Assembly (NCBI GenBank): GCA_026770025.1
Contig: JAMXDE010000044.1
Coordinates: 310,001 to 374,000 of the forward strand
Length of the DNA stretch: 64,000 nucleotides
Direction of reading: 5' to 3'
DNA from: Craspedostauros australis
Lineage: Eukaryota; Bacillariophyta; Bacillariophyceae; Mastogloiales; Achnanthaceae
The position numbers were made by a program, and so were the translations under genes. A model generated the notes under the pieces. The model ran no database searches. It worked only from the letters and a program-made list of their open reading frames with translations, and was not told where the DNA came from. Below, piece by piece: positions 21,387 through 43,636 of this stretch (the stretch's first letter is position 1; every line of letters begins with the position of its first letter).

Positions 21387-23261
21387 ATGGCATTGGCACC
21401 ACTGCTCGCAAGTGATCACACGCAGAGCAACCTCGTGAAGCACAAGATCCATAGCAACAGCACCAAACGAAGAGAAGCACGAAGACAGCGAAGAAGAACA
21501 ATGAAGACGAGACAAGCATCGTCGTCGTTTCGATGCCGTCCGGCCAAGTGCGCAGCCGTCGCAGCTGCCATTGTTGTCGCGCTGATGTCGAGCGGCTCGG
21601 TGGTTGGCTTGAGTGCAGAGACAGATGCAGATGCAGCCATCAGCGGCTCATGCCCGAACACGGCTGATGAGGCATGTGCTGCCGCGGGTGTCCGCGACGA
21701 GGGACAATCCCCGCAATCGGTGTTGCTGACTTCCTCCATCGCATCGGATCTCACAGATGATCATCTGCTGGAGGATCTCACAAATTGGGTCAAGAACAAT
21801 GGCGGATACGTCAACGAAAAGGTCCAGCTGCGCCGCGCGGACGTCAACGACCCGAGCTCCGTGCGTGGCATCTTTGCCAACGAGGATGTTGCGGAGGGCG
21901 AGACCTTGTTCACGATTCCTTGGGATCTCATGTACCATCCTCCTGCCATCAAGGAAATCACAGAGGACTCGCCCAAGTCTGCACATATTCGACAAAGAGA
22001 CTTCTTCGAGCAGGACATCTGCACAATGTACGAACAGCTGTATCGCGACATGCATTCGGAAACGCCGTCACCATACGCCAAGTACCTGATGAAGCAGACG
22101 CGCAACTACATCCCGCCCATGTGGACCGATGGCGGCAAGACCCTGCTGAAGACACTCGTCGGGCACAACCTGCCACCGTACTGGGAGATCGAATCCCTGC
22201 ATTACAACAGCTTCGAGCTCGAATGCGAGCACATCGCCGACAAGTTGCAAGCCGAAGAAGGCGATCGCTTTGACATGGAACTCTGGGATCATGCTTTCAT
22301 GCTCACCACGTCACGGGCCGACGGCGAAATCCTGACACCCTTCTACTGCATGATCAACCATGCCAACGGCGACCGGTACAACGTGCGCCACGAAATCGAC
22401 TACGGCGTCACGTTCTCGTTGGTGTCCACGCAAGACGTCCCGGCCAACGGGCAGTACTTCTCATCGTACAACAAATGCAACACGTGCGATGGATGGGACA
22501 AGGATTTTGGCACCCCTAACATGTTCCTTTGGTTCGGATTTGTGGAGGATTATCCGCAGCTCTACGTGCTCTCCGATTGGAAAGAAAGGCTGAAGAGGGT
22601 GGAGGAGCAAGTAGCCGCTGTTGCCGCTGCTCAAGAAGAGAATGATGATGACGACGACGACGACGACGATGATGAAGGAGATAAAGAATCTGCAGAGGTG
22701 GATAAGGACGAGAAGAAAGATGTCACGGACGCTGAGGTTGATAATGGTGCGGACGATGAGCAGGAAGGAAGCAGTGATCAAGATGACGATGATGACGACG
22801 ACGATGATGATGACGACGACGATGAGGAAGAGGAGGACGAAATAGAAGGCGTCATTTCGGACGATGGTGCTGATGATGACGACGACGACAGTGGCGAAGA
22901 TGAAGACGAACAGGAAGAGAGTCCATTCGCCCATGAGTTCACCCATGAGTACCGAATCAAGTTCGGCGTCGACCATAATCCAATCACCAACGAATTGGAG
23001 GCCAAATTCTATGCCCCGCTGTGTGCAAGCTGTCTGGAATTCCTCGAGTACCAGTACGCGTTCTTGAAATCACAGAATGAAAAGCACAAGGGCACGTTGG
23101 TCAAACCGGATGACATGCCGCAATGGGAATGGGACGGTGCTTGGAGCTTGCATGAGGCATACCTCAACGCATTTAAGCTTGCATTGGAGAAAGCGGAGAC
23201 AACGACCTTGTCGGAATACGTGTGGGATCATGAAGACTGGTGGGATACGGAAGAAGGCTAA
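21387..23261 (+). CDS. SET-domain protein 1 (RLSMT/SETD3-like), secretory pathway, acidic insert
   Basis: Probable protein-lysine methyltransferase of the split-SET type related to Rubisco LSMT/SETD3. Start at ATG 21387 (ACAACCATGG); a later ATG at 21501 would give a shorter N-terminus that looks like a plain signal peptide. A hydrophobic segment at about residues 55-75 suggests a signal anchor. SET motifs: VRGIFANEDV near 165, the cofactor-binding MINH at about 322-325, and the SSYN Tyr near 358. A CxxC pair follows (KCNTC) and a second lies further on (LCASC). Residues about 418-511 form a long Asp/Glu-rich insert encoded by GAT/GAC repeats, which splits the C-terminal helical substrate-binding lobe from the SET core. 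Its closest relative in the window is SET protein 4. The substrate is unknown. It is convergent with SET gene 2, 128 bp away. Confidence 0.88.
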   Translation: MALAPLLASDHTQSNLVKHKIHSNSTKRREARRQRRRTMKTRQASSSFRCRPAKCAAVAAAIVVALMSSGSVVGLSAETDADAAISGSCPNTADEACAAAGVRDEGQSPQSVLLTSSIASDLTDDHLLEDLTNWVKNNGGYVNEKVQLRRADVNDPSSVRGIFANEDVAEGETLFTIPWDLMYHPPAIKEITEDSPKSAHIRQRDFFEQDICTMYEQLYRDMHSETPSPYAKYLMKQTRNYIPPMWTDGGKTLLKTLVGHNLPPYWEIESLHYNSFELECEHIADKLQAEEGDRFDMELWDHAFMLTTSRADGEILTPFYCMINHANGDRYNVRHEIDYGVTFSLVSTQDVPANGQYFSSYNKCNTCDGWDKDFGTPNMFLWFGFVEDYPQLYVLSDWKERLKRVEEQVAAVAAAQEENDDDDDDDDDDEGDKESAEVDKDEKKDVTDAEVDNGADDEQEGSSDQDDDDDDDDDDDDDDEEEEDEIEGVISDDGADDDDDDSGEDEDEQEESPFAHEFTHEYRIKFGVDHNPITNELEAKFYAPLCASCLEFLEYQYAFLKSQNEKHKGTLVKPDDMPQWEWDGAWSLHEAYLNAFKLALEKAETTTLSEYVWDHEDWWDTEEG

Positions 23262-23389
23262 AACCCAAGTACTTGTGGCGTACAAGAAACAACAGACTTA
23301 GCGAAAGTTGTAGTCGTATGCGATAGCCCCTTCGTGTTCGATTCGTTTGTCGTTTTGAGTGTACTTGCGAATGAATGTTCTTGAATGTG

Positions 23390-25006
23390 TTACAGTTCGT
23401 CCCGAATCTCATCGTACTCGTAGTATTCGTCATCCTCCTCGTCTTCTTCGTCTGCATCTTCGTCTTCTTCATCGTCTTCGTCTTCTTCATCGTCTTCGTC
23501 TTGTCCACCGTCTTCGTCCTCATCCTCATCTTCATCTTCATCATCTTCGCCGTCATCTTCATCCGAATACAAGTATAATTCCCAATCCTCCATGTACCAG
23601 TCCTCTCCCATGCTCCATACTTCATCTGTGACGGTCTCTTCCTTGGCCGCCTCTAATGCCAACGTGAATGCCGTCTTGTAGGCATTGTGCAATTGCCACG
23701 TGGTCTCCCGTTCCATGACAGGGATGGTGTCGTCCCGCTGCCGTTGCTGTTCCGCCTCAAACTGCGCCAACCGTTCCAACTCCTGCTGCAGGAACTGAAT
23801 AGCTTCCGAACACAATGGCACCAAGAACACAGCGTGCAGATGCTCTCCCTCTTGCACGACATCGAACTTGACACGGTATTCCGATGCGTCATTCTCCAGG
23901 ACGTACCGCTGTGGATAGTACTCGACGAATCCGTAGGATTGGAACATTTCGGGCGTGCCGTAGGAATCCTTGCGATTGCCGCAGTTGCTGCCTTGATTGT
24001 AGCTGCTGTAGGCTTCGTGTTGTTTGGGAATGCGCTGGCTGGCGACCAGTGAGAATGATTCGCCGTAGTCCACATCATGGTCTGTATTGAGGAGGTTGGG
24101 ATCGTTGCTGTGATTGATCATGTCGTAGTACGGCGTCATGAGCTCATCATCGGCCCGCGATGTGACGAGCTGCCAGGCATGGATGAGCAGTTCGCGGTTG
24201 TCGCCGGACAAGTCGTCCGCCTCTTCCACAGCCTCCACCATTTCTTCGCAGTTGGTCCATAAATCATTGATGTGCTTCCCGAATACGGGCGGCAGCTGCG
24301 GTCCCAACATGGCGCGCAAAAAATCCTGGCCCGCATCGCTCCACAACGTAGGCAAGTAGTTGCGCGGTTGCTGTTTGAGGTATGTGCCGTACGGAGTCGG
24401 AGGCGTCTCAGGTTTCATGTTCTCGTAAATGAGACGGATCGTCTCACAAGCATCGTTCTGCTCATGGTGTTCAGGATCCGGATGCACGATGATGCTCCAC
24501 GGAATCGTGAAGAGAATCTCTCCCTCCTCCACATCGTCGTTGACGAAGATGCCGCGCACGGAGGTGGGGTCGTTGGGATCGGCGCGTCGCAGTTCCACCT
24601 TGTCGTTGATGTAGGCTTCGTTGGCGATGGCCCATTCAGTTACCTTCCCAAGGAGGTGATCGTCCTCCAGGGCCGATTCGATGCTGGATGCCAGCTTGCC
24701 GTCCACTTCGGCCTGCGCTCTGTTTGTCTGCGACTCTTCACTACTGTTGCTGTTGCCATTGCTGTTGTCATTGCCACTGCTGGTGTTGCCATCTATCTGC
24801 TGTCCCATTTGCGGCTGTGCATCGATGGAAGAGACCGCCTCTGCATCTGCCACACCTCCTGACTCTGCAAGTGACTCTGCAGTACGAGCACATGCAGTCC
24901 GACTCAGACTCAATAAAGCCGAGAGCAGCAATAGCAGAGGCAGGATGGTGGACGCTGTTGCACCTCGTCTGAATAAAGCTGTTGGTCCTCGTGAATGACG
25001 TCCCAT
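23390..25006 (-). CDS. SET-domain protein 2 with signal peptide, acidic tail and C-terminal RDEL
   Basis: Start at ATG 25006 (the open frame extends to a TTG just upstream); 538 residues. The N-terminus is a strong signal peptide (STILPLLLLLSALLSLS, cleavage near ACA-RT). SET motifs are the best preserved of the four: VRGIFVNDDV, MINHSNDPN near residue 295 and SSYN near 334, followed by a GTPEMFQSYGFVEYYP block, so it looks catalytically competent. The last 60 residues are almost entirely Asp/Glu, with some Tyr, and end IRDEL. RDEL is a known variant of the KDEL/HDEL ER-retention signal, so an ER-lumen location is inferred. The CxxC pairs of the paralogs are mostly lost here (SNCGN, LCSEA). 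It probably methylates a lumenal or nascent secretory protein; the substrate is unknown. Confidence 0.88.
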   Translation of the reverse strand: MGRHSRGPTALFRRGATASTILPLLLLLSALLSLSRTACARTAESLAESGGVADAEAVSSIDAQPQMGQQIDGNTSSGNDNSNGNSNSSEESQTNRAQAEVDGKLASSIESALEDDHLLGKVTEWAIANEAYINDKVELRRADPNDPTSVRGIFVNDDVEEGEILFTIPWSIIVHPDPEHHEQNDACETIRLIYENMKPETPPTPYGTYLKQQPRNYLPTLWSDAGQDFLRAMLGPQLPPVFGKHINDLWTNCEEMVEAVEEADDLSGDNRELLIHAWQLVTSRADDELMTPYYDMINHSNDPNLLNTDHDVDYGESFSLVASQRIPKQHEAYSSYNQGSNCGNRKDSYGTPEMFQSYGFVEYYPQRYVLENDASEYRVKFDVVQEGEHLHAVFLVPLCSEAIQFLQQELERLAQFEAEQQRQRDDTIPVMERETTWQLHNAYKTAFTLALEAAKEETVTDEVWSMGEDWYMEDWELYLYSDEDDGEDDEDEDEDEDEDGGQDEDDEEDEDDEEDEDADEEDEEDDEYYEYDEIRDEL

Positions 25007-25906
25007 GGTTGGCAACTTTTGCTTTCAATCGATCCTAACTGTGTGGTCTGTTGGTCCACTTTATGGCGATGACAATGCCTGTCCAATCGGTCTGGTACGA
25101 CCTTCGACGTATGACCCCATTCAGGGTACGATCGTACGATCCTGCCGATTTTTTATCGGATAACAATACTTTATTAGCACACGGTGTAGCGTCTTGTCGC
25201 ATAGGCTTAGATATATTTAGCTAGCTTTTACGACACAAATACCTGGCTGACTTGTCCTCGTCGTGGACGAAAATGATGACGTCATTGACGGTCGATGTCA
25301 GACTGCAATGGTATCGAACGGTGTGGATGGCGATGTTGTGGCAGATTCGGCGCCGCGTTGATTCCTCGCGTCGTTTTGGATTTGGCTTGGTGAGGGGTTG
25401 CCTCCTTTGTTCGTGTTGTGTCATGGAGCACGGCGATGGTGGTGGCATCCCTACACGTCCACTTCCACGTCCACGACAATAGCAACACTTGCGAATACTA
25501 CACAACATAATATTCTATATTATAATACAATATGGTGTAGTGGAGCACAGTGACTTCTCCTTTGGTCTGAAAAATAGAATTTGATTTAACACTTGTTATA
25601 GCATTGTTTGTAAAAACAAAGTCCTGCAAAACCTGCTTTGCTTCCCATGGACATGAGACAACATGGCCATCTACTGAGCTGTTGGCATGGCGCAGAAAGA
25701 GACTGGTGGCAGAAGTGTTGTTTTCCGTGTTGCTTCTTGTGTTGTGATTCGAGTGCGTGCCGGTTTATTGACACCGAAACAAAAAGCCAAGAGGAGAACA
25801 GATGAACAACAGACAGAAGCCAATGCTGGCTGTTGGAAAACAACTAGCAGAGAGGAGGTCCAAACACGTGGGCAGGGAATAGACCTGAAGTGAGGACAAG
25901 GCCGTA
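25007..25906. other. Intergenic region with AT-rich island
   Basis: Upstream of SET gene 2 and left of the piggyBac nest. Contains the AT island ATATTCTATATTATAATAC at about 25510-25530, whose motif recurs near 51400 and 52000. No gene is supported. Confidence 0.5.
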
Positions 25907-26404
25907 CTATCCGTTCATGACCTAGACAATATAATACATCGTTTCTTGTTTTCAGTTTCAGTTCTTTTCATTTTTGACAACAACATCTGTGAACAATACC
26001 ACTTTCTTTACATCTTTAGAAAGCTGTTGAGCACAGCTTTCCAATGAATATGTTTAAGTTTAATGTTTCTTACTGCCATCTTATTGCTAATCAAGCCTGA
26101 GGTACTCCTGAATTAATTCTGCACCATGGGACTGAAGTGAAACTGTTTGGCAAGGCTCAAACTGCGAGGCTGGCAACGTCAAATCCGTTTTCCACATCAC
26201 ACTTGCTGAAACTGCTGTTGTACTTCGCTTTCAGCGATTCCTTGCTTTCCTCTTCCAAGGTTTTCATCTCCTCTCGTGTCCTTTACGTCTTCATCACCTC
26301 CTTCCTTCAAGCATGCATGGGTGTGGCAACATCATCACTTGTGATGTTCATCTTCATTTTGTCTTGGCTTTGCAACATCGCACCTTCCGCAAACTCAAAC
26401 AATC

Positions 26405-28979
26405 ATGGAGCTCACAATTTCATCGCACTCACATAAATCATCGTACTCGCACGATCAACGCACCCATACTACCATGGTTCCATCTCCAAAACACACACCC
26501 AAGCCACCACTGCACCCTCGATCTTCCAGCCCCCACAAGGAAGCAACAGCAACACCCAAATTGCATCCTGCTTCCAATCCTCCACAATTCCAAGCAGAGA
26601 GCATACTTGCGTATGACATCGGTTGCCCATACGTTGTATTCGTCCACGAGTCTCTCATGTCTCCAATGAACAATGACAGCAAATCTCGAACAGCACATCT
26701 GCCACCAATGCCCACCTACTGTGATTTCTTGGAGAGTGGTCCACCCAACAGCCCCACCAATCTATGAGGTAGTGTCAACAGGGATGTGTGGTCTTCCTAC
26801 AACAGCTCATCAAATCCACCCCAGCAGACTTCTCCATCTGACCACACCGATTCCATGAGCCAACAATGCACAGCGCTTTCCTCCAGGTTGAACAGCAGCA
26901 GCATCGAACACAACTGCTCAACATGGATCAAGCCAACTATTCACCACATGGATCAATCATCAATGGCAAGGCACTTTGCCTTGGCCAGGAGAGATCCTTC
27001 ATTCAGTGCCAGTCCAGCTCTGTTCGGATCAAGCATCAGCAAGCAGCCCACCCAAGTTTGCCAGCCCATCTCTGTTGCAATCAACCATTGATAGAAGCGC
27101 AGATGACAATGCATCTGCTGCATCTGCTTCCCAAGGGGCTGCATCTGCATCTCAACATCAACATGAGACAAAGCCAGCACTTCAGTATGTGCCACTACCT
27201 GTGAGTGCACACAACTGCACGTCCAGCCCATCCACAATGTGGAAATGAACAGTGACACTATCCTGGAAATATTCTTTCCAGTTTCACTACTGGAGAAGAT
27301 CCAATTCTACACCAACAGCCATCTTTGCAACACCAAATTGATGGCAACTGCCATCACCGTCCCTGAGCTGTACATCTTCTTTGCCATGTACTACTAAATG
27401 GAATTCTTCTGAGCTCCAGCAACAATTAACTACTGGAGAGCTGCCTCAATCTCTGTTCCAACGCATCTACTCATGACACACATGTCCAGATCAAGATATG
27501 AAATGGTATGGAAGCCTATGCACTTCATTGCATTGCCAACCTTGAACAAAATGTCTGAATTGTCGGTGGAGACTGCAGCTGAACCACCAGAAGCTGAGGA
27601 TGACATGAACCCCCATGGACTTTGTTTCAGCTTGGGAACTGAATGTATCAGGAGTGTCAGAAGGGTTGCCACCAGAAGCTGAGGAGCATCATGCTGGTAG
27701 CCCTCACAGTCCAAGCAGGGAGGCAAGAGCATCCACACAATCACAGCAGAAACAATCCGCCAAGTATCATCCAGTGCTCCAGACCGATCGGTTGTGGTAT
27801 GGCAAGGTTCAGCCCCTTCTCAACCACACCAACAGTGTGTCGAAGCGGCTGTGTCTGAAACCTGACTATGCTTGCGCCATAGATGAGATGATGGTTCAAT
27901 TCAAGGGAAGATCTGCACAAATGCATTGCATGCAGCAGAAGCCAATCAAGGAAGGCTACAAATTCTATTCACTTTGCTGCTCAGCCTCGGGGTTCATGTT
28001 CCATGTGCTGCCATCGGGGTGCCTGGACAAAACCACCAGGATCAACAACACTGTCGCAGAGCTGCTTGCCAAACTCAATCCTGTTGACAAGCATGTTGTT
28101 GCCATGGACAATCTATTCACTACAAAGACTGTCATTGAGAAGTTGAGGGAGATGGGAGTGGGCATTGTGGAACTGCAAGGTATCGTTGTGGATTCCCTCC
28201 CAAAGAAATGAAGGACATCGAAGATGGTCGCTTCAACTCTGTACATCTGGACAGAGAGTGACAAGTGTGTCATTACTTGATGGGTGGATAACAATGTGGT
28301 GCCCATGGTGAGTACAGTCCATTATGCAAACGAGGCAGTCACAAAGAATCGACATCGACCACAGCAGACCACAACGAACAAGAACCATCTGAAGACTGTC
28401 TGGGGTGATGACTGGAATGCTGCAAACAGGATCCCAAGAATGATCAATGACTACAATCATTGGATGGGAGGGGTGGATTGGTGTGATCAGCTTATTGCAT
28501 ACTATCAACCAAATCTGGGGTGTTGAAGGGTATGGATGCCAATCATGTTTCACCTACTTGACATACTGAGGGTGAACTCATGGATCGCGCACAGTCGCCT
28601 TGTGGAGGAGGAGGATTGAATGGATCACAAATCATATGGCTTGGCATTGGTGGAAGCACTGGTGTGGAAAGCGAGGACCTGCAAAGTCTGTGGCACAAGG
28701 AGGGCAAGAAGAATCCCAAAGGAGATAAGAACAAGGACAGGGATGAACAATACCCGACCAGTGTTGAGCGAGGATAGGTTCATGGGTGTGGATAAAGACC
28801 ATGGACAGAAAATTGACAAAGATGGAAAGCAATGACTTTGCCAATATTGCTGCTACTTGAAGGCCACAAAAATTACTGGCCTAGAAGAAAACACTCCCAA
28901 GAGGGTCAAGCGGATCTGCAGCTCGTGTAGAGTCCATGTCTGCAAAGACCATTGGGGTATATACCATGGAAGGTGATGA
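26405..28979 (+). pseudogene. Decayed piggyBac transposase
   Basis: Transposase relic parallel to the intact copy at 29570. Matching blocks in order: PYVVFVHESL (against PFVVFLNGNR), DTILEIFFPVSLLEKIQ, YWRAASISVPTHLL, the DDE blocks ACAIDEMMVQFKGR and VVAMDNLFTT (27870-28120) and NHWMGGVDWCDQ (28460-28490), and a Cys-rich tail at 28848-28978 (LCQYCCYLKATK ... CSSCRVHVCKDHWG). Stops and frame changes interrupt it at several places, for example after the VVDSLPKK block near 28211, just after NLGC near 28526, and a TGA just before the Cys-rich tail. The three catalytic Asp positions are still readable. It is useful as the ancestral state for the intron-like insert of the younger copy. Confidence 0.8.
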
Positions 28980-29060
28980 AGTATCCCTTCGTGACCTAGG
29001 GGATTACTTCGATCCAATATAAATTTCATTCTCACCCCATTCCGTTTTTGACCGCAACTT

Positions 29061-29372: not shown

Positions 29373-29569
29373 GGCTTCGCTGGTGATCTCCGTGGCCCAT
29401 CGCTCATGGACAATTCTTCGTTGTGCTCAATCTCCTTGATTGTTTCTTCTCACCGTCGAAGAGATCGTCACGATTGTTGATCACAAAATTGAAATCACAA
29501 TTCCAACGATGCCACATCATCGATCGCCCATCACGACACAAGCACAGCAGATCTCGTCCACCTGCGGCC

Positions 29570-31900
29570 ATGCCCACATCATCTCCGTCCTCTCCCACAT
29601 CCAAGCACGTCAAAGCATCCAAGCCTCCCCCAATTGGCGCGGCAAGCTACAATTGTGCCGAACCCTTTGTGGTATTCCTCAATGGCAATCGGAAAGAATT
29701 GCTTCATGCTACTAATGGAGCGACAGGAAACCGCTCTGCAGGAGCACCAACTGTGAGCAGCAAGGGAGTATGCAATGGCAACAGTGCCTGCATCAGCGTG
29801 GCTGGTACCACCACCATCAGCAGCACCGCAAGCAGAATCGAAAGCAACAGGCGCAGCAGTCGCATCCTCAACCGCCTCAAACGCAAACTTGCGTTGAGGC
29901 AAAAAAGCCATCATGAGAGAAGCGGCACAATCGCAGCCAATGACACCAATGATGGCACGCCCAGCCACGATGGCACGCCCAGCCACGATGGCATGCCCAG
30001 CCACGATGGCATGCCCAGCCACGATGGCACACCAAGCAACAATGGCACGCCCAGCAACGATGGCACACCCAGCAATGATGGATCAATGGGTGCAGATCAC
30101 ACCACTTTCATTGGTGCTGCCATGGCTACTGACAGAGCAACTGCTACAAATGGCACAATCATGGACAACAACGGAATTGCAAATGACAATGCAACTGGTG
30201 CTGATGGCACAACCATTCCTGTGCATGGAGCCGACAAAAATGTTGCCTATGCACCACTTCCCATCAGTTCCCACACGCCACTCTTCCGGTCAGTTGGAGG
30301 TGTCAACCCATCAGTTGATACCATCCTGGAGGTTTACTTCTCACGGCAACTCATTGAATCCATTCAAGTCCACACCAACAACCATATCTTCAACAGTGGA
30401 TCCACGGCCAGCTTCGTTTCAGTGAAGGAGATCTACCTCTTCCTTGCAATCTACTACTACATGGGAGTCTTCAAGGCACCGGCCAAGCGAGATTATTGGC
30501 GTGCCCCTTCCATTGGCGTACCATCCCACTTGCTGACAAAGTACATGACACGGGCAAGATACGAAGTTGTGTGGAACCACATTCACTTCACAGCTGTGAG
30601 GGGCACAATTGCTGCTGACACAAAGAAGGCCACTGACTCAGATGACGAGGATGTCAGTGACAGCGAAGACGATCTCGTCCAGAGCCGATACGATTCTCTC
30701 ACAAGTGCAACCATCAGCAGCTCGCCCTCAATTCGATCTGCAACTTCGAGCCTCTCTGCATCCACAGGCAGCAACCAAACCCTGTACACGCAGCCCCACA
30801 TTCCTCCTACACCGATTGTTGACAGCAACAGAAGCTGGTATCACAAGATCCAACCACTGCTTGACCACGTCAACCAGGTGTCGAAGAGTATCTGCATCAA
30901 GCCAGGCTTTGCCTGTGCAATCGATGAGATGATGGTGAGATTCAAGGGCAGGTCCAGGCAGACCACTCGGATGAAGCAGAAACCCATCAAAGAGGGGTAC
31001 AAATTCTATGCTTTGTGCTGTTCGAAGACTGGATTTGGATATCATGTACTGCCTGCAGGACGCCTGGATACTACAACAAAGATCAACAACACTGTGGAGG
31101 AACTCATGAAGACATTGGTCCCATCGAATCACCATGTCGTTGCAATGGACAACCTCTTCACAACCAAGACGGTCATGGCAAAGTCAAGAGAGATGGGCAT
31201 CGGAGTTGTTGGCACTGCAAGGAGGAGGAACGGCTTCCCCAGCACAGAGGTGAAGGAGGTCGATGACATGCGCTTCAACTCGCTCTATGTCTGGATCGAG
31301 AACAATCAGTACGTGGTGACCAGGTGGATTGACAACAATGTGGTGTTGATGGTCAGTACGGTGCACCATGGGAACGAGTCAGTCCTTTGCAATCGCCACA
31401 AGCCAAGAAAGAACAAGGTGAATGCAGGGCACTTGGAGATGGTCTGGGGGAGCAAGTACTCTGCTCACATCCGAATCCCGAAGATGATTGACGACTACAA
31501 TCATTGGATGCTTGGAGTTGACAAATGCGATCAACTCATCGCATACTATCGCCCTGACTTGAGGGCTCAGAGAGTGTGGATGCCCCTGATGTTCCACTTG
31601 TTGGACATCATGCGCGTCAATACATGGATTGCATTCAATCACCTGGCAAGGGAACAAGATCGATTGAGAAGCAAGGCATTCATGATCGAAATGATTGAGG
31701 CTCTTGTTCGCAAAGGTAATGAGGCAGACTTGATGGCAACAAGGTCAAGCCGCGAGAGAGTCCCACACACCATTCGAACAAGGAATCGGATGAGCTCCTG
31801 CTCTCCAAAGCTGCCCAGATCGAGGTTGGAGGGGAGATTCGAAGATCACAAGGAGATCATCAGCAGGGACGTGTTAGAACGTAATCGTAGATGGGTGTGA
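29570..31900 (+). CDS. piggyBac transposase (uninterrupted core)
   Basis: 776 residues from the first in-frame ATG at 29570; the open frame runs on upstream to a GTG at 29423. This is a DDE transposase of the piggyBac type (Pfam DDE_Tnp_1_7). A polar N-terminal region includes seven hexapeptide repeats (29951-30079). The catalytic blocks are ACAIDEMMVRFKGR, VVAMDNLFTT and NHWMLGVDKCDQ, each with its Asp. The family's C-terminal Cys-rich zinc-binding domain is absent from this frame but is encoded at 32504-32713. If 31895-32503 is spliced out, the protein is 844 residues with a complete tail. It is probably the source, or a close relative, of a recently active copy. Confidence 0.88.
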   Translation: MPTSSPSSPTSKHVKASKPPPIGAASYNCAEPFVVFLNGNRKELLHATNGATGNRSAGAPTVSSKGVCNGNSACISVAGTTTISSTASRIESNRRSSRILNRLKRKLALRQKSHHERSGTIAANDTNDGTPSHDGTPSHDGMPSHDGMPSHDGTPSNNGTPSNDGTPSNDGSMGADHTTFIGAAMATDRATATNGTIMDNNGIANDNATGADGTTIPVHGADKNVAYAPLPISSHTPLFRSVGGVNPSVDTILEVYFSRQLIESIQVHTNNHIFNSGSTASFVSVKEIYLFLAIYYYMGVFKAPAKRDYWRAPSIGVPSHLLTKYMTRARYEVVWNHIHFTAVRGTIAADTKKATDSDDEDVSDSEDDLVQSRYDSLTSATISSSPSIRSATSSLSASTGSNQTLYTQPHIPPTPIVDSNRSWYHKIQPLLDHVNQVSKSICIKPGFACAIDEMMVRFKGRSRQTTRMKQKPIKEGYKFYALCCSKTGFGYHVLPAGRLDTTTKINNTVEELMKTLVPSNHHVVAMDNLFTTKTVMAKSREMGIGVVGTARRRNGFPSTEVKEVDDMRFNSLYVWIENNQYVVTRWIDNNVVLMVSTVHHGNESVLCNRHKPRKNKVNAGHLEMVWGSKYSAHIRIPKMIDDYNHWMLGVDKCDQLIAYYRPDLRAQRVWMPLMFHLLDIMRVNTWIAFNHLAREQDRLRSKAFMIEMIEALVRKGNEADLMATRSSRERVPHTIRTRNRMSSCSPKLPRSRLEGRFEDHKEIISRDVLERNRRWV
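29951..30079 (+). repeat. 18-bp coding tandem repeat in piggyBac N-terminus
   Basis: Seven copies of an 18-bp unit encoding D-G-(T/M)-P-S-(H/N), with small variations between units. The decayed paralog has no comparable array at this point. Confidence 0.9.
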
Positions 31901-32844: not shown

Positions 32845-32892
32845 GTAAAACAAAAATTCAGTAGTTCCCAACGATAGCACTAGTAAACGATG

Positions 32893-33005
32893 GTACCGAT
32901 TTAGTTTTCACGTTGGCCGCGGTAGGACAAACGCGTTCAAAAATTAACACGGTGTCGAGATATACGATATAATAGTGTAACTATCTCTGGGTCATGAAGG
33001 GATAG
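32893..33005 (+). repeat. Right subterminal region, outer piggyBac
   Basis: Second, diverged copy of the block at 32738-32844, with the same landmarks in the same order. It is taken as the right end of the older element. Confidence 0.7.
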
Positions 33006-34057: not shown

Positions 34058-35692
34058 TCATTCATCATTGCGATACGGTTGAAACCGCGATACATCGACG
34101 AACCGTCGGTTGAGATACCACGCGCTCGTCCCGCCGCCCCGTGCATTCTCCTCGCGATGGGCTGCAAAGAGATGCGCATATTCGCGATTCCAATTCTCCA
34201 CAGAGGTCCAATCTTGCGCGTTCTTTTCCCAAATGATGTCCGTCACCATCTCGCGGTGCTGCGATGCCGCCGTGAAGGCCTCCACGTAGGCCTCGTGCAA
34301 CCGCCAGGCCGTGTCCCATTCGAAGGGGAGGATGCCTGGCCAGTCGCTTGCATCTGTCGTGATTTTGCGTTCCCCGATGATCTTCAACTCCTCCAGTTCC
34401 TTCTCGACAAAAGCGATGGCCTCTTTCGAGAGAGGTGCATCGAAGCTTGCTACCACCTTGCGACTCGGATCGTTGGCATCGTAGGTGGTCCGATCGACGC
34501 TGAATTTGAGGCGGTACGTGTCACGTCCCCAGTCGCTGAGGATGAAGTTGCGGGGGTAGTTCTCGACGAAGCCGTGCGATTGGAAGATCTCCGGCGTGCC
34601 GAACCATTGGTGCTTATTGCCGCAGAGGTTGCACGCGTTGAAGGAAGTGGAGAGTGTGGTGTTCGGTCGGTTGATGTGACCCTCTGAGACCACCGCAAAG
34701 GCCTCTTTGTTGACAAAATCGTGGGCGTTGTAATCGTTGTTGCTGTGCTGGAAGAAGTCAAAGAATGGGATCACAAGATGATTGTTGGCGCGCGATTCCA
34801 CCAACATCCAGGCATGCTCGTACAGATCCCAATCGATATAGTACTCCTCATCCTCACGCAACAGCACCTTTTCGCATTGCGTGTAGAGCTTCCGGTTCAT
34901 GTAGTCGTCGAAATGGAGCGGTGCGAGGTTGTCACCCAGGATCTGTTCCAAGAGGTTCTGACCCGCCTCGGTCCACATGGACGGAAGCTGATTTCTGCGC
35001 ACCGTCTGCAGGTAGCGCCCGAACGGTGTTTGCTTGCCGTGCGTATTGTTGAGCTCGTGGTACATGTACGAGACGGTCTCGCACACGTCGTGCCTGTTGG
35101 TGGGAATGAGCATGACGACGATATCGTACGGCATGCGGAACAGAATCTCGCCGTTGCTGATTGGTCCGGTCGTGACCAGGATATGCGGCGAGTACGGATC
35201 ACCAGGGATGACGCGCAACGGCGTGATCGAGGGGTGGATGCGCCCGCCGTTGCTGTTGATCCATGAGATCATGTCTGCGATGATGCCATCCACTTCCTCC
35301 ACAGTGAACTCGTGCTCCTGCTTGTTCGGCTGGCTACCTTCATTTCCGTACTCATCATCGTAGTACGCTCTTGTCCTCATCTCGACATGGCTACTTTCGC
35401 CGTCTTCATCATCGTCGTCTTCGTCGTCTTCATCGTCTTCATTATCATCGTCGACCTCTTCAGCCACGTCGGTCGCCTCTGCAGTCTGCGGCACGCTCTC
35501 TGTCGATTCTGCCTGTGGAGCAGCAGCATCCGCATCAACGTTCGCGGCGTCTGCGGACCCTGTCCACGATGCTGGATCAGCCGCCTTGGCAGCCGCAGCA
35601 GCGTCACAACTGCGCAGTGCAATGATTGCGACAGCCACGAGAGCAAAGAGGGAGCGCATCGCTCTGCGCGGCGAAGGCCTTCTGGAGTTCAT
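34058..35692 (-). CDS. SET-domain protein 3, signal peptide, key residues replaced
   Basis: Start set at ATG 35692 (MNSRRPSPRR), which is followed by a clear signal peptide (MRSLFALVAVAIIAL); the open frame extends 70 residues upstream into AT-rich leader. 544 residues. An acidic segment lies near residues 55-75. The SET fold is recognisable from blocks shared with the other three: NGEILFRMPYDIVV, MWTEAGQNLLEQIL, and GTPEIFQSHGFVENYP. Two diagnostic positions differ: the N-H cofactor motif is FQHSNNDYN (Asn to Gln), and the catalytic Tyr motif S-S-Y-N is T-S-F-N (Tyr to Phe). It is therefore likely a pseudo-enzyme, perhaps a binding partner or regulator of its paralogs. The CxxC pair ACNLC is retained. 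There are no in-frame breaks, so the gene appears maintained. Confidence 0.85.
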   Translation of the reverse strand: MNSRRPSPRRAMRSLFALVAVAIIALRSCDAAAAAKAADPASWTGSADAANVDADAAAPQAESTESVPQTAEATDVAEEVDDDNEDDEDDEDDDDEDGESSHVEMRTRAYYDDEYGNEGSQPNKQEHEFTVEEVDGIIADMISWINSNGGRIHPSITPLRVIPGDPYSPHILVTTGPISNGEILFRMPYDIVVMLIPTNRHDVCETVSYMYHELNNTHGKQTPFGRYLQTVRRNQLPSMWTEAGQNLLEQILGDNLAPLHFDDYMNRKLYTQCEKVLLREDEEYYIDWDLYEHAWMLVESRANNHLVIPFFDFFQHSNNDYNAHDFVNKEAFAVVSEGHINRPNTTLSTSFNACNLCGNKHQWFGTPEIFQSHGFVENYPRNFILSDWGRDTYRLKFSVDRTTYDANDPSRKVVASFDAPLSKEAIAFVEKELEELKIIGERKITTDASDWPGILPFEWDTAWRLHEAYVEAFTAASQHREMVTDIIWEKNAQDWTSVENWNREYAHLFAAHREENARGGGTSAWYLNRRFVDVSRFQPYRNDE

Positions 35693-36538: not shown

Positions 36539-36643
36539 ATGCCGCCGCTGCTGTCACCACCGTCCGCCGCCCACCACGTCCAAGTCGCCGTCATCGGCGC
36601 AGGTGTGATCGGATTGGCAATTGCGCGCGCTCTACAGCGATAA
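36539..36643 (+). pseudogene. Orphan FAD/NAD-binding Rossmann N-terminus
   Basis: A 34-codon frame starting at ATG 36539. It contains VAVIGAGVIGLAIARAL, the G-x-G-x-x-G dinucleotide-binding start of FAD-dependent oxidoreductases such as L-2-hydroxyglutarate dehydrogenase. It ends at TAA right away. A pyrimidine tract and CAG follow at about 36644-36670, looking like a splice acceptor, but no continuation of the enzyme was found before the P450 gene. It is probably a gene fragment, or a first exon whose partner lies elsewhere. Confidence 0.4.
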
Positions 36644-37160
36644 TTTCTCTCTCTCTCTCCCTCTCTCCAGGTGGGACGAATGCTGCTGGCTTGTGTTTCG
36701 ACACAGGCAAATGGTTGGTTGGAGGATCCAACCAGAATGATGATGATGATGATGAGCACCATGTGCACGAAAGACGAGAGTCGTGGAACAACATGGCAAA
36801 AGAAGCACGATTCTCGATTTGTTGGTTGGTTTTGTTCCCGTGCGTGTTTGGGATCAACATCTGTCCTTGGACGGATACATGGATTGAGTCGAAGCGGTCG
36901 ACGCCGCCAATAACAAACGACAATGTTGGATTCTCCACCATCCCCAGAGAGCTCGTACAAAGACTACTCGCACGTGCCACCCTCCGCTCAGACGCATTCG
37001 CCATCGCCCCTTCCTTCTGCCGTCAAATGCTGAACCTTTCACGATGAATCGAATCCGTTTGTGCAAGTAGTAATAATTTGTATGAACTCTGCTAGTCAGT
37101 GAAACTAATATGAAAGTGGCTGGTTGCTGCCATTGTGCATCTTTTGATCGTTGATCAAGC
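36644..37160. other. Intergenic, CT-rich tract then 3' flank of P450
   Basis: Starts with a CT microsatellite (36645-36668). No gene supported. Confidence 0.4.
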
Positions 37161-38633
37161 TTACATCTTCTTCACGCGAAGCTGAGTCCCCATGTACTTC
37201 ATCGTCAAGAAGAAATCGATCTTGCCCTCCGCCGCAACTTCGAACTCGTACTTCGACAAGATGCTTGGCACGACCGAGCTGAGCTCAGCAATTGCCAACG
37301 ATTGGCCGGGACAGCTGCGATTGCCCATGGCGAATGTCACCATGCTCTTCATCATTTCCTTGGTCGGATTCTCCCATCGACCAGGTTTGAACTGCTCAGC
37401 ATCTTCAAACACCATCTCGTCGCGGTGGGCCGTGATCTGCGGCAGAAACACGGCAGCACCTTTGGGAATCTTGACCTTGCGGTTGGAAAGATCGTCAAAG
37501 AAGATGAAATCGCGGCCGGTGAGACGAGCTGGACCCATCGCAGCAACAGGAGTCACTCGTTGGGATTCAGTGATCACGCGCTTGAGATGGTCGCTGGATT
37601 GCGCCGGGTCACCCTGCAACAACGACTGCTGCAGGTGCTTCATCTCGTTGGGATGCTTGGCCAGCAAGACGAGGGTGTTGGAAAGTGCGTATGCCGTTGT
37701 GTCGAAACTACCGATGATCAACAGAAGCAGTTCCGCGATCTGTTCTTGTTCTGACATGCCATGCGCGTTGGACTCGATCACCTTGATCAATGTCTTGCGC
37801 TCCGACTTGTTGGGCTTGTTGCGGTAGGCTGTCAAGACCTTCTTCGCAAAGCCTTGCATAGCGGTGGTGCCTTTGCGCGCCTCCCAGACTTCTGGGATCA
37901 TGAAGCCGAATATCTTCCGGAAAGGATTGGTGGCTGAGCGGTAGGTAAACTCACGTGCAGCCACCTCGGAGCTGGACGTGAACAGCTCGAAGTCTCCGGG
38001 AGCCGCTTCGTATTCGAAGGCTGCCTCCATGATGGATTTGAACACGATCTTTGGCAATTCGATGGATGGGTCGAATGCCATGTCGGTATCCGCGAGCTTC
38101 TCGAGGAAGCCCGATTCCCACTCCTTGGCGTACTTCGCGCAGATGGCATTCATTCGCTTGACTTCCGAAGACGACATTGCATGTGTGACGGATTTTCTCA
38201 TGTGCTTCAAGCTTGGGTCGGTTGTTGGACGCGTCGCCATTTGCTTGTGTCCGATCATGGTTTCGAAGCCTGCGTAGATAGGCATCGGCTTGTCCGTAGT
38301 CTTGTCGAGATACACCTCGCGTTGATCTTTCGCAGCGCAGAGGACATAGGCACCTCCAGGGACTGGGATGTTGTGCTGGAAGATGGAAGACCCCAAGGAT
38401 TTCCGAAGGTGGAGGTGCCACCATGGTGCTTCGGATGATGCCAGAAGTCTGACGGACTCCATGATCCCGACAGGGACCTTGACAGGGGCATCTTTGGCGG
38501 CTGGTCTGTTGAAGGCGATGGCAGCCCATCCCAAAGCAAGTGCCAGAGCGATCAGGCTCACCGTTGAGACGTTGTCTCCCAAAGCTGTTGCGAAATCGAA
38601 GTTCATCATCGTCATGTTCATTGTTGTTGTCAT
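37161..38633 (-). CDS. Cytochrome P450
   Basis: Heme-thiolate monooxygenase, 490 residues from ATG 38633 (the frame extends six codons to a TTG). The N-terminus is Met/Thr-rich, then has one hydrophobic segment (VSLIALALALGWAAIAF, about residues 23-39) that fits an ER membrane anchor. Diagnostic motifs are present: I-helix GSFDTTAYAL (oxygen-activating Asp-Thr-Thr), K-helix E-x-x-R as ITESQR, and the heme loop FAMGNRSCPGQ with the ligand Cys at 441. There is no intron. Overall it looks like the CYP51/CYP61/CYP97-unrelated protist P450s that I cannot place in a numbered family, so the substrate is not assigned. The gene stands alone, with no pathway partners nearby. Confidence 0.9.
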   Translation of the reverse strand: MTTTMNMTMMNFDFATALGDNVSTVSLIALALALGWAAIAFNRPAAKDAPVKVPVGIMESVRLLASSEAPWWHLHLRKSLGSSIFQHNIPVPGGAYVLCAAKDQREVYLDKTTDKPMPIYAGFETMIGHKQMATRPTTDPSLKHMRKSVTHAMSSSEVKRMNAICAKYAKEWESGFLEKLADTDMAFDPSIELPKIVFKSIMEAAFEYEAAPGDFELFTSSSEVAAREFTYRSATNPFRKIFGFMIPEVWEARKGTTAMQGFAKKVLTAYRNKPNKSERKTLIKVIESNAHGMSEQEQIAELLLLIIGSFDTTAYALSNTLVLLAKHPNEMKHLQQSLLQGDPAQSSDHLKRVITESQRVTPVAAMGPARLTGRDFIFFDDLSNRKVKIPKGAAVFLPQITAHRDEMVFEDAEQFKPGRWENPTKEMMKSMVTFAMGNRSCPGQSLAIAELSSVVPSILSKYEFEVAAEGKIDFFLTMKYMGTQLRVKKM

Positions 38634-40322
38634 CGTGGCAGGGGTGGTCAAAGGTGTGTTGTTGCTGTGTTGTTGTTGCTGTTGCTCGAATTATGGAATG
38701 AGAGTGGAAGGAATATGAGATCTGTGGACTGGGTGGCTGGAGAAAGCAGCCCCCGGAGAGGATTACGCAAAGTAGTCGCGCGCAGATCACGGGAGTCCAA
38801 ATGCCAAGCCGCCGAGCGACTACTTGCACGCCACATCCCATCGCACCTCAACATATCGCACCACAGCATCCCCCTTCTCTTTTCCTCCTTGATCACGAAT
38901 CCAACTGTCCACCAATCATTCGTTGAACTTCAATCATACTCAAATCAAACATTTTTTGAGACAGAGATGTGCACACTGAGAACAACCAAAGTGAACTGTT
39001 GCATGTTCATAGATCGAAGAATGGTCAAGACAAAGAACGGCTTTGTCTACCTGTTCATTTTCTGTTTCGATCCCAGTTGATTTCGTCAGCGGTTCTCTTG
39101 CAGACGATGCCAACAAGAGGAACCAGCCGAGCGGAAGCGCTGTGTTCGTGGACACGTCTGCAGTTTGGAGATTCGCGTCTCTGAAACGAACGAGTGTTCT
39201 GGGTTGGTTGACATATCCACTGCTTCTTTCAATGTTCGTCGCTTGTCCGAGTTGGTGAAATAGGATCGAGAAGAGGGACACGCTTGTCAAGAATCGAGGG
39301 TGCAGAAATATATCTAAAACTTTTAATGCCGCACCTCCCACTGTCATCATTCGGATTAGGCCGAATCAACTCGGGTGGACCACACTCGAACTACCTTGTA
39401 TCCTGGCCAGTCCCACACAACGAGTCATATCAAGTAACACAGCTTGTCCCAGATGTGCACCCGAAAACAAGTGCGAATCATGACTCTGATCATTGGGGAT
39501 AAACCCAAACGCGATCAGGAGTATGGAAACAACTGAGCCTTTTTCAGGAGAACAACATACGACACAAGGGCACGCCCTGCTTGCCCATGACAAACAGGGA
39601 CACCTTGGAGACTTCCAAGAGAGAAATGAGCATCTTGTCACCCAAGAACATGAAAGAAGTCTTGACGAATGATGGAGAAACCACAGGTGACTTGACGATC
39701 ATGAGAGCAAGAAAGACTGAGGGATCGATGATGAAGTGGGATCGATAGATACGAAACCTGTGACAAGCAACATGTATGTACTGCATGAATGTAGAGCGAA
39801 ATGAGGCTACTACAATACACCATGGTGTGCATGATGAAGTGCGATGAGAGAGCAGGTGATGGAATATCTGAGATGCATAATGAGATTCATCAATACTGCA
39901 TGATGAGATGTACATGAAGTACATGATGCATGACATGATGAAGCAGGAGACAGCACTACATGAGCAAAGACAAGACTGTGTGCTAGTGTGGATTATGTAT
40001 GCTATGGCAAATGGAATTGAAAGAGATGGACATTTGTACTCACAGTTCCAACAATGCAGAAACAGGAATAGGTGACCAGAGACTACTACTTGGGACTGGG
40101 TTACCCTGAATTTGCAACAACCATGAGGGGAGGGCGGACAGGGAAGATTGAGACCCACTGGCATGGCATTAGTCTCATCAACAGTGCCAAGTCCAATGCA
40201 AATGTTGCGCAGACCATTTGATCACCCTGCTGCAGTACAGCCAGGGCCAGCAGCAGCAGCAGAGGTGCTGTCAATAGCATGAACGGAAGCTGGAAGCACA
40301 CCAGAGCGCTCATCATTGGTGG
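38634..40322. other. Intergenic region, possible decayed sequence
   Basis: The P450 5' flank lies at its left. From about 39540 to 40200 there are fragments with protein-like composition on the plus strand (for example DTLETSKREMSILSPKN near 39600 and GKIETHWHGISLINS near 40145), interrupted by many stops. This suggests an old, unidentified transposon or gene relic. Confidence 0.4.
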
Positions 40323-40607
40323 TGTCAATATGCATAGATAACCACTATGCATATTGACAAAAGTAAGAAACCAACCAAGTGTCTCTGGTTGGGTGAATAC
40401 TTTGGGAAGGACTGTGCATGTAGAGGGACTGGCCTGACTGTCTTCGGGAGATGCTGGCTCTATCCTAGCCCTAATGCACAACATAGCAGCTGGGCCAAGC
40501 GGTATCCACGCAATTTCCGGCCGTAGCTCGAGTGTGGACTTGAACCCAAAGACACTTGGTTTCTTACTTTTGTCAATATGCATGGAGAACAACTATGCAT
40601 ATTGACA
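40323..40607. mobile_element. MITE-like element with self-palindromic terminal inverted repeats
   Basis: 285 bp. The left end begins TGTCAATATGCATAG and the right end finishes with its exact inverse, CTATGCATATTGACA. The inverted arms extend about 60 bp (to AAAAGTAAGAAACCAA and GTGTCT), with a short unmatched part at bases 16-24 and a 4-bp difference. Each arm is itself a hairpin: TGTCAATATGCAT pairs with ATGCATATTGACA within 40 bp. No coding capacity. Target duplication is unclear (GG or GGT). Confidence 0.75.
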
Positions 40608-40730
40608 GGTAGAGGCTGGTGTAGGCTGAGGTGGAGCAGTGCAAGGCACACGGAGAGCGTCGAACGCTGCTGGGATGGCGCTGGAGCGTCAAAGGTAGGC
40701 CTGGAACTGGCACACCTCATGCACGTCGAT

Positions 40731-40997
40731 TCAATTGTCAGCGTCATCGCGATGATCATGATACCACATGCGGAGCTTCCACATGCCATGTACATGGATC
40801 AAGGGGCCACCCCACTTGGTCATGCACACATGGAAGAGAGTGTCCTCGACATTGAAGAGGTCATAGAGCTCACTGTCACTGGCCACGCGGATCGCGGTGC
40901 GTGCGTCATCGAGCCACTTCCAGCCAAGTCGCTTGGAGATGGTCTTGGCATCAGCCAGATTGTTGGGAACAAGAGCAGGGTAGTCTTGACCAGTCAT
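40731..40997 (-). CDS. Hypothetical small protein
   Basis: 88 residues from an ATG at 40997 preceded by a C/T-rich leader. Composition is protein-like (DAKTISKRLGWKWLDDARTA, FHVCMTKWGGPLIHVHG). No family recognised. It may be a first exon or a fragment related to the neighbouring relic. Confidence 0.35.
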   Translation of the reverse strand: MTGQDYPALVPNNLADAKTISKRLGWKWLDDARTAIRVASDSELYDLFNVEDTLFHVCMTKWGGPLIHVHGMWKLRMWYHDHRDDADN

Positions 40998-41824
40998 GAT
41001 GGGTGGAATGGGGAAAGGGGAGCAGAGAGAAAGGGTGAGGAAGGATACCGCGGGAGCAAGGGAATGGGACGTTCTTGAGCAACATGCGAAGAGAGGAAGT
41101 AGATGGATTCATGAGGAGCGTGAAAGGCCATAACCTGTCAGTATCGTGAGAGTGTGGTGTGTATGATTTTGTGCTAATGATGGATTCATGGCCACAGGGT
41201 TGTGATGATGTTTGTTGTGTCAGCTCTTGCTGCTGTCAGAAACGTCTGCCATCGTACGTGTGTACGGATACCAACAGTCATCACATGATTGTTCTCTTTC
41301 TCAGTCGTGAATCGTACAGTTGTGTCATAAAGGCTACGCAAAATAGGGTAGAGTAGAACTCATGATCGATTTTGACGATTATTGCGCAGAACCTTGAGCA
41401 AGAGCATTCTGGTGTGGAGTACGCGGACGGTAATTCTAAAATGGCATTGGTGGTGTTACGTCCTTGGGGGAGGAACGGACATGATAGTGAGATGTTATCG
41501 ACAAAAACGCCAGACCTCTCCCCCGAGTCGCTGCTTTTCGATGACGGAATGAAGATACGTGCGGATGCTCATGCCAGCGTCGCGAACGTTGACTGCGTCC
41601 GGGCTACGAACATCAATGGCATAGCTTCGCCATGCATCGCCACGATAAACTCCTGTCAGGGAACAGCATTCTCGCTCATCAGAAAAAAAACATTCAACGG
41701 ATCCACCCATACTCATCAATACTTTTCTATTACATTGGGGTTCGTGAAACTGTACTACGCATGATACCAAGAATGCACTCTCATTTCGATTCTGATGTCC
41801 TCTTTCACTGTTCTGTTAAAAGCA
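40998..41824. other. Intergenic region
   Basis: 3' flank of SET gene 4 at its right end. No gene supported. Confidence 0.5.
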
Positions 41825-43636
41825 TCAGCCTGTGTCCGTGTCAAACCAACCCGCGCTCTCCCAAACTTCTTCGGACAGCGTCGTCGTCTTGGCCTTCTCC
41901 AACGCCAACGTGATGGCGTTCAGGTAGGCATCGTGCAGATTCCACGCGCCGTCCCATTCCCATTGCGGCATGCCATCCGGCTTTGTGAGCTTGCCCTTGT
42001 GCCGATGCTGCGTTGCCAAGAATTTGTGCTGCTCTTGCAAGAATGCCAAGCAGGTCTTACACAAGGGCGCGTGAAAGACGGCATGCGGTACGTTGGTGAC
42101 GGGATCGCGTTCAATACCGAACTTGAGACGGTACTTATCGATCTTTTGGATTGCGACAGTCGTTTCTTGGCCGTTATCGTCGACGATCTCAATCTCGACC
42201 AAAGGCTTCTTTTTCTTACTTTCCGCGTGAAAGTTCTGCGGATTGGAATCATGCATCACGTAAAGTTGCGGATAGTCCTCGATGAAGCCGAACCAAAGGA
42301 ACAGATCCGGCGTCCCAAAGTCCAAGTCCCATCCTTGGCAGGTATTGCATTTGTTGTACGATGAGAAGTACTGGCCGTTGGCGACGACGTCTTTGGTGGA
42401 GACCAGGGAGAACGTGACGCCGTAATCAACTTCATGCCGCACGTTGTACCGCTCGCCGTTGGCATGGTTGATCATGCAGTAGATGGGCGTCAGGATTTCG
42501 TCGTCCGACCGTGACGTTGCCAGCATCCAGGCGTGATCCCACAGTTTCGCATCAAAGGCATCACCTTCCTCGTCCTCAAGTTTCTTTTTGATATGCGCGC
42601 ACCCTTTCACGAAATTGTGACGGTACATGTTGTCGACTTGCCATGATGGTGGCAGGCTAGGCCCGATGAGCGCCTGCAGCGTCTCCTTGCCTCCGTCAGT
42701 CCACATGGGCGGGATGTAGTTGCGCGTCTGCTTCATCAGGTACTTGGCGTATGGTGATGGCGTTTCTGAATGCATGTCGCGATACAGTTGTTCGTACATC
42801 TTGCACGTGTCCGGATCAAAGAAGCGAGTCTTGCGAACACTTGCGGATTTGGGCGAAGTTTTTGTGATTTTCTTGGTGGCAGGTGTATGGTACATGAGAT
42901 CCCAAGGGATGGTGAACAAGGTCTCGCCTTCTGAGACGTCCTCGTTCGCGAAGATGCCACGCACGGAGCTCGGGTCGTTGACGTCCGCGCGGCGTAGTTG
43001 GATCTTGTCATTGACGTATCCGCCGTTGGCCTTGACCCATTCCGTGAGTTCGCGAAGGAGGTGATCATCTGTGAGATGCGATGCGATGGAGGAAGTCAGA
43101 AACGGCGATTCCTCAGACGGATCGATTTCATTGAGTGCTGTGTTGGTGCCACCGTTCCTGACGTTGTTGTTCTTGTTGTTGTCAAGGGTTCCTCTTTGGG
43201 CAAACGAACGTTGTGGGGCTGCCGCTTGTTTTGTCGTCTGCTTGTGGGCAGCTGCACCCGCAACAACATCCGCAGCTGAAGCAACGGCCGCAGCGTCCAA
43301 TGCCTGGTTCAGGTCAGACTGAAAAGAAAGGATCACATCAGCGTCCCTTCCAAATCCACTGACGAATCGCAGCAGAAGGATCAGAATGCCCACGGCAGCG
43401 ACCGCCATGGAGCACATTCGGCACACGAAGCTCGTTGGCGTTCGTTCAATTCTGATGCGGTTACTGATCCTTCGCTTCCGTTGAAAGGCCGATGACGGCT
43501 GTGTCATCACGTTGGACGGTGGATCATCTGAGGGTGCGGAAGTGGGCACAGACAGCTGGCTTCGGACGGCGTCATGCTTGGCCAGTTTGCTTCGATCAAC
43601 CCTCGCATCCACGTTGCGCTGTCGTCTCGAAATCAT
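41825..43636 (-). CDS. SET-domain protein 4 (RLSMT/SETD3-like), signal anchor
   Basis: 603 residues from ATG 43636. A basic cytosolic-looking N-terminus (QRKRRISNRIRIER) precedes one membrane segment at about residues 74-92 (MAVAAVGILILLLRF), giving a type II anchor topology with the SET domain lumenal. It is highly similar to SET protein 1 over the core: DVNDPSSVRGIFANEDV, ETLFTIPWDLMYH, SETPSPYAKYLMKQTRNYI. Cofactor motif MINHANGERYN and catalytic-region SSYN are both present. CxxC pairs NKCNTC and LCKTC match protein 1. It lacks the long acidic insert of protein 1, and a short basic stretch (ESKKKKP) stands there instead. This marks the pair as a recent duplication in which one copy gained the acidic tract. 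It is divergent from the MoaC gene. Confidence 0.88.
   Translation of the reverse strand: MISRRQRNVDARVDRSKLAKHDAVRSQLSVPTSAPSDDPPSNVMTQPSSAFQRKRRISNRIRIERTPTSFVCRMCSMAVAAVGILILLLRFVSGFGRDADVILSFQSDLNQALDAAAVASAADVVAGAAAHKQTTKQAAAPQRSFAQRGTLDNNKNNNVRNGGTNTALNEIDPSEESPFLTSSIASHLTDDHLLRELTEWVKANGGYVNDKIQLRRADVNDPSSVRGIFANEDVSEGETLFTIPWDLMYHTPATKKITKTSPKSASVRKTRFFDPDTCKMYEQLYRDMHSETPSPYAKYLMKQTRNYIPPMWTDGGKETLQALIGPSLPPSWQVDNMYRHNFVKGCAHIKKKLEDEEGDAFDAKLWDHAWMLATSRSDDEILTPIYCMINHANGERYNVRHEVDYGVTFSLVSTKDVVANGQYFSSYNKCNTCQGWDLDFGTPDLFLWFGFIEDYPQLYVMHDSNPQNFHAESKKKKPLVEIEIVDDNGQETTVAIQKIDKYRLKFGIERDPVTNVPHAVFHAPLCKTCLAFLQEQHKFLATQHRHKGKLTKPDGMPQWEWDGAWNLHDAYLNAITLALEKAKTTTLSEEVWESAGWFDTDTG

Follow-up and report, generated by a model that had tools for sequence, protein, structure and literature searches.

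Four clustered SET-fold genes with secretory features in the diatom Craspedostauros australis

SET-domain proteins of the SETD6, SETD3 and RLSMT kind work in the nucleus, cytosol or plastid. Here, we describe four genes, W1 to W4, of a SET-fold family in a 64,000-nucleotide stretch of the genome of the diatom Craspedostauros australis (the window; positions 310,001-374,000 of contig JAMXDE010000044.1, here C42, within a 74.8 Mb assembly). The family shares the fold, the NH motif and the catalytic Tyr of SETD6, SETD3 and RLSMT, but differs from them in its secretory N-termini, the DEL ends of some members, invariant cysteines, a CxxC insert after the Tyr and the lack of PF09273 (Rubis-subs-bind).

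The lysines of silaffin-1A1 are all di- or trimethylated or bear N-methylated oligo-propyleneimine (PMC4557024), and how diatoms make long-chain polyamines was still described as unclear in 2018 (PMC6356823). Of the closest systems known, two come from diatoms. Nemoto et al. 2020 (Mar Biotechnol 22:551), known through the descriptions of others, reported diatom-specific SET methyltransferases with a suspected role in regulating cell-wall proteins and long-chain polyamines (PMC11554505, PMC11151724). Michael 2011 (FEBS Lett 585:2627), likewise known at second hand, reported fusions of S-adenosylmethionine decarboxylase (AdoMetDC) with aminopropyltransferase, some of which carry a histone N-methyltransferase domain (PMC3820600, PMC12029483). 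As far as these descriptions go, diatom SET methyltransferases and methyltransferase-polyamine fusions are already known as kinds, and because both are in print the four genes are additions to them and not unprecedented. The likeness to the Nemoto set, diatom SET methyltransferases in both cases, is one of descriptions and not of sequences. The likeness to the Michael fusions, again as others describe them, is the joining of methyltransferase and polyamine-synthesis domains in diatoms; the window genes differ in having no polyamine domain, and their fused sisters elsewhere in the genome differ in running from a signal-peptide-like segment through SET to aminopropyltransferase-like and AdoMetDC-like parts. 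Within the accessible portions of the literature searched, there is no description of endoplasmic reticulum (ER) retention ends on such SET proteins, of the four-Cys signature, of SET-first secretory fusions or of a sister relation to them.

Fold and catalytic motifs of the four genes

The initial annotation of this DNA proposed four paralogous SET-domain genes, and all four open reading frames (ORFs) are intact: W1 (ORF 21387; 21387..23261, + strand, 624 aa), W2 (ORF 23390; 23390..25006, - strand, 538 aa), W3 (ORF 34058; 34058..35692, - strand, 544 aa) and W4 (ORF 41825; 41825..43636, - strand, 603 aa). W1 is 60% identical to W4, 39% to W2 and 30% to W3, and by these alignments the four are paralogs. 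W1, a SETD6/SETD3-like protein with a long internal Asp-rich insert, and W4 are close duplicates with 77% identity over 281 SET-region residues; the nonsynonymous and synonymous divergences are 0.148 (dN) and 0.673 (dS), and at a dN/dS of about 0.22 the pair is, on this estimate, under purifying selection. W1 and W2 are convergent and 128 bases apart. The sequence blocks that had been listed as shared by the four are near-exact in W1 and W4 and not so in W2 and W3.

Searching the genome with three of the four proteins as queries (W2, W4 and W3) gave a fifth member on the same contig (C42:450359, about 97 kb beyond W4) and five further stand-alone members, of which C7 has one and C30 and C11 have two each. 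A second group consists of SET exons fused to polyamine-enzyme-like domains; 13 of the 14 known exons of this kind were aligned with the 10 stand-alone proteins (23 rows; locus C21:1061048 left out). In a tree of the 23 SET regions over 235 columns, the stand-alone and fused rows split at 100/100. W1, W4, W2 and the fifth member (C42_450k) group at 95/90, the position of W3 is unresolved and the five C42 genes are not supported as a single group (53/42). L080 and L081, two SET loci chosen as controls, belong to different SET types and could not serve for comparison.

The Pfam SET model exceeds its cut-off of 22.4 bits in W2 only (34.5 bits), with W1 at 19.3 and W4 at 19.0, both below it, and no match in W3; an NCBIfam search of W1-W4 gave no match. 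A profile built from W1-W4 alone matches human SETD6 at just E 0.012, and one built from 10 family members matches SETD6 at E 2.7e-10, SETD3 at E 5e-5 and RLSMT at E 2e-3. The W2 domain, the only one of the four window proteins modeled with AlphaFold2, has a mean predicted local distance difference test score (pLDDT) of 82.6 and a predicted template modeling score (pTM) of 0.76. Its best structural match is SETD6 (E 3.6e-10, TMq 0.60, root-mean-square deviation 6.5), followed by RLSMT and SETD3, and the modeled fold is thus closest to SETD6 rather than RLSMT. The annotated RLSMT/SETD3-like fold holds, with SETD6 and not RLSMT as the nearest match. A plain RLSMT identity was rejected: PF09273 is absent from W1-W4 and from the three more stand-alone members scanned.

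The NH and SY motifs of the family align to the NH motif and Tyr of SETD6 and SETD3, which we take to be the catalytic residues. W1, W2 and W4 retain RG, NH and Tyr, and with them the motifs for S-adenosylmethionine (SAM) binding and catalysis, and would be SAM-dependent N-methyltransferases. The divergent W3 has lost all three motifs (HI, QH and SF, that is NH to QH, SY to SF and loss of a conserved Gly), yet its ORF is intact and keeps the N-terminal core and four Cys, and for these reasons it is probably a pseudoenzyme.

Signs of a lumenal location

All four proteins had been annotated with a hydrophobic N-terminal segment, and this was borne out. Taking the hydrophobic core as the highest 11-residue Kyte-Doolittle mean in the first 90 aa, with a threshold of 2.0, the window proteins score 2.78 to 3.25 (W2, 2.78); 10 of the 11 other window ORFs of at least 250 aa were tested, and two exceed 2.0, one of them a cytochrome P450. 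A core of 2.0 or more is present in 8 of the 10 stand-alone and 11 of the 13 fused rows. Hydropathy and visual inspection were the basis for calling signal peptides. In W2 the core (24887..24958, - strand) leads up to a likely cleavage region, TACA, placed by eye, and W3 has a signal-peptide-like segment at 35600..35650 (- strand). The cores of W1 (aa 55-74, around aa 57; 21549..21608, + strand) and W4 (around aa 79; 43355..43408, - strand) stand far inside the ORFs, and therefore require either an internal start (M39 in W1; M74 or M77 in W4), giving a signal peptide, or a type II anchor.

The second sign is at the other end of the protein. W2 terminates in RDEL, a signal of the ER-retention type (23393..23404, - strand), behind an acidic C-terminal tail, and this is the sole [KHRD]DEL end among the 197 window ORFs of at least 80 aa. 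Two relatives, C30_600k and C11_309k, terminate in HDEL, also behind acidic stretches, so that such ends occur in 3 of the 10 stand-alone members and in 2 of the 6 relatives outside the window. At an assumed 0.001 per protein, the chance of at least three DEL ends in 10 proteins is approximately 1e-7. W2 carries both features of an ER resident (RDEL and a signal peptide as judged by hydropathy); W1, W3 and W4 have the N-terminal part only.

The third sign is a cysteine signature. All 23 aligned members have Cys 212 and 280 (W1 numbering). Each Cys of the CxxC is found in 18 of them and both together in 17; both are gone in 4 of the 6 rows that lack the whole motif. As annotated, the CxxC directly follows the catalytic-Tyr segment in three window genes: it reads FSSYNKCNTC in W1 (22458..22487, + strand) and W4 (42338..42367, - strand) and STSFNACNLC in W3 (34622..34651, - strand), in which Phe takes the place of the Tyr. 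W2 keeps the second Cys only and has another Cys in its C-terminal part. Apart from its likely signal peptide, W3 contains only four Cys in all, and these are the signature four. Neither human SETD6 nor human SETD3 has a Cys at the places aligned with 212 and 280; SETD6 also lacks the CxxC insert, and the SETD3 alignment stops before that place. The single control L082, a canonical RLSMT-type protein from this genome, reads ISYGPKSNAELLLLYGF, without the insert. Since two Cys are invariant and two frequent, an oxidising compartment is the simplest reading. Of the disulfides or zinc in an oxidising compartment that had been proposed, the compartment is supported, and a post-SET zinc site was rejected on comparison with the post-SET Cys pattern, as the CxxC belongs to an insert that immediately follows the catalytic Tyr. 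Among the window genes, only W1 (Cys 546/549) and W4 (Cys 526/529) have another CxxC, in their C-terminal portion.

Together, these features support a lumenal (ER or secretory) location of the cluster proteins. Of the lumenal methylation system that had been suggested, the location is backed by the RDEL/HDEL ends and methylation is plausible for W1, W2 and W4, and not for W3, which has neither the NH Asn nor the Tyr. Overall, the earlier interpretation is partly supported; the RDEL of W2, the motif loss in W3, the fifth member, the fused sister family and the link to silica and polyamines are additions to it.

Fused sister group and proposed function

The genome has 21 places that match Spermine_synth, and 13 of them have a SET exon of this family immediately upstream. 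In this fused layout, exon 1 encodes the N-terminal core and SET and is followed by a GT-AG intron of 164-365 bases. Exons were joined for 10 of the 13 fused rows (C30_488k, C56_115k and C21_885k were omitted, as the motif search missed one or both ends), and the intron is at one site in all 10; the second exon of C56_175k runs into a stop and was kept unaltered. The junctions resemble the corresponding sequence of intronless stand-alone genes, for example YGTP-ELFRDYGFIEDFPQ. In the three loci scanned, exon 2 matches PF01564 above cut-off every time (E 2e-16 to 2e-19) and PF02675 at E 1e-3 to 2e-6, above cut-off in one and below it in two. W1-W4 have no match to an aminopropyltransferase domain in Pfam. 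An alignment with spermidine synthase shows the first Asp of the DSSDP block kept and the second replaced by Glu. The exon-2 model has a low pLDDT of 53.8, and its Foldseek matches to spermidine synthase are taken only as agreeing with the sequence. Where locus L072 on C10 has ESH, the motif that holds the pyruvoyl-forming Ser, four of four fused loci have EGY or EAY in their first AdoMetDC-like stretch, which therefore seems to lack decarboxylase activity. Close to the C-terminus there is another, weak AdoMetDC-like copy, with ESG in L069 and DAG in L068.

Other arrangements of these domains also occur. At L037/L025 (C10:1026547-1031759), two SET segments in series are followed by one aminopropyltransferase (spermidine-synthase)-like domain. 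L072 (C10:1723500-1726900) and C10:1740682-1743250 are mirrored copies that run AdoMetDC, aminopropyltransferase and then a different SET; loci of the L072 type are likely fusions of the kind described by Michael. Four SET places are clustered on one strand at C28:531824-537403 and were not retrieved by the protein queries of this family.

On balance, we favor the reading that the stand-alone proteins are ER-resident N-methyltransferases acting on silaffin-type proteins or long-chain polyamines in a silicifier, with W3 as a pseudoenzyme, and we think it somewhat more probable than its negation. As read from the sequence, W1-W4 would enter the ER through their N-terminal signals, and some members would be held there by RDEL or HDEL. 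The proteins may be stabilised by disulfides, and W1, W2 and W4 would transfer methyl groups from SAM, which would have to be supplied to the ER lumen, to the amines of a cargo; W3 may serve as a partner subunit. The likely substrates would be lysines of silaffin-type silica-forming proteins or the amines of long-chain polyamines. Their methylation would take place in the ER, ahead of delivery to the silica deposition vesicle, and the fused sister group would couple methylation with aminopropyl addition. This choice of cargo follows from the genome being that of a silicifier and from the polyamine-type domains of the sister group. The SET set of Nemoto et al. is reportedly also putatively ER-targeted. 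The cluster proteins would then be good candidates for the enzymes, as yet unproven, by which silica-forming proteins are modified, and the list of secretory SET genes and their fused sisters makes the silaffin and polyamine question approachable by knock-out and assay on named genes.

A wider version of this proposal is possible, and we hold it only tentatively: a lumenal line of lysine modification in which stand-alone, ER-retained and disulfide-bonded enzymes of the SETD6 fold methylate silaffin-type lysines, the fused sisters build N-methylated propyleneimine chains directly on protein lysines and dead members such as W3 act as subunits. If true, this line would supply the machinery that is still missing for the polyamine-modified silaffin lysines.

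Several findings weigh against the favored reading. A search of the window with a crude Ser/Lys rule gave no silaffin-like secreted gene: a single ORF among the 197 fitted the rule, and this sole candidate was rejected as it has no hydrophobic N-terminus. Catalytic residues are altered in 3 of the 10 stand-alone members (W3, C42_450k and C30_656k), and 3 of the 13 fused SET rows lack NH or Tyr: C30_488k (EH, SQ), C13_585k (SF) and C21_885k (TL). The core of C30_656k, near the N-terminus, reaches just 1.82, and the peak of the HDEL-ending C30_600k is 1.78 and located within the SET domain. The cores of W1, W4, C21_885k, C56_181k and C56_115k are distant from the first Met. No DEL end is found in W1, W3, W4, four other stand-alone members or the two fused proteins for which the C-terminus was seen whole. 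Finally, as the first AdoMetDC-like stretch of the fused forms seems inactive, decarboxylated SAM would need another source.

The alternative that survives best is that these are secretory or ER methyltransferases of other secreted proteins, such as adhesives, glycoproteins or ER chaperones, unrelated to silica. The lumenal signals are silent on the substrate, and the missing silaffin-like neighbor fits this explanation as well. We nevertheless regard it as unlikely, given the fusion of the sister group to polyamine-type domains and a genome rich in silicon transporters (SIT family; 88 places, of which 32 exceed 760 bits). Published expression data point the same way: 12 SET-domain genes of Skeletonema decreased with salinity, alongside silicon content (PMC11554505), and another diatom has silicon-responsive methyltransferase genes, which are not named as SET (PMC11151724).

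The altered residues could instead mean that the whole group consists of lumenal pseudoenzymes, disulfide-stabilised SET-fold proteins that bind lysine-rich cargo without methylating it. Beyond W3 and the three fused rows, C42_450k (AH) and C30_656k (SH) have another residue in place of the NH Asn, and the long acidic stretches offer possible binding sites for cations or basic cargo. The intact motifs of W1, W2 and W4 and the purifying selection estimated for the W1-W4 pair make this improbable.

A plastid location was considered because the fold family includes the plastid-acting RLSMT and because in algae with complex plastids a hydrophobic segment can be the first half of a bipartite plastid signal. 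W4 is readable as cleaved before Phe (SG/FG), similar to two light-harvesting proteins of this genome that begin SAAAFAP. Against this stand the RDEL/HDEL ends and the charge of the 40 residues that follow the core. Of the 19 members with a core of at least 2.0, 17 are net negative there, which is a weak test, as the single light-harvesting control gave a net charge of 0 over 24 residues. PF09273, moreover, occurs at five other places in the genome, none of them in this family. Plastid methyltransferases are thus quite improbable.

That the hydrophobic N-termini are gene-model artefacts absent from mature mRNAs is very improbable: the long stretches ahead of the core in W1, W4 and some fused rows do leave the start codons uncertain, but cores of at least 2.0 recur across both groups, and neither the DEL ends nor the invariant Cys hinge on which start codon is used.

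Surroundings of the cluster

The genes had been described as interspersed with transposons, and one piggyBac-type transposase ORF (29570-31900, + strand, 776 aa, long open) does lie between them, together with a cytochrome P450 ORF; a long open Copia-type ORF (6653-12112, + strand, 1819 aa) is outside the gene interval. In viral and prokaryote collections, no relatives were confirmed among 23 and 31 pattern matches, a coarse test with few peptide patterns, and viral or bacterial relatives were rejected on this basis. In the ORF at 12779-13963 (- strand), an N-terminal region of PT repeats (PF04886) precedes a Cys-rich remainder, and the core in the first 90 residues is at most 1.32.

Elsewhere in the genome, an 18S locus matches a diatom primer site at 21 of 22 bases. 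The 18S match at L079:780-3022 (- strand) takes 2243 bases for model positions 106-1831, and the approximately 500 extra bases are perhaps an intron or an expansion. The SIT set is very large and consists of genes plus fragments; about 1 kb separates the fragments at C30:597921-598876 from the SET gene at C30:599991, which ends in HDEL.

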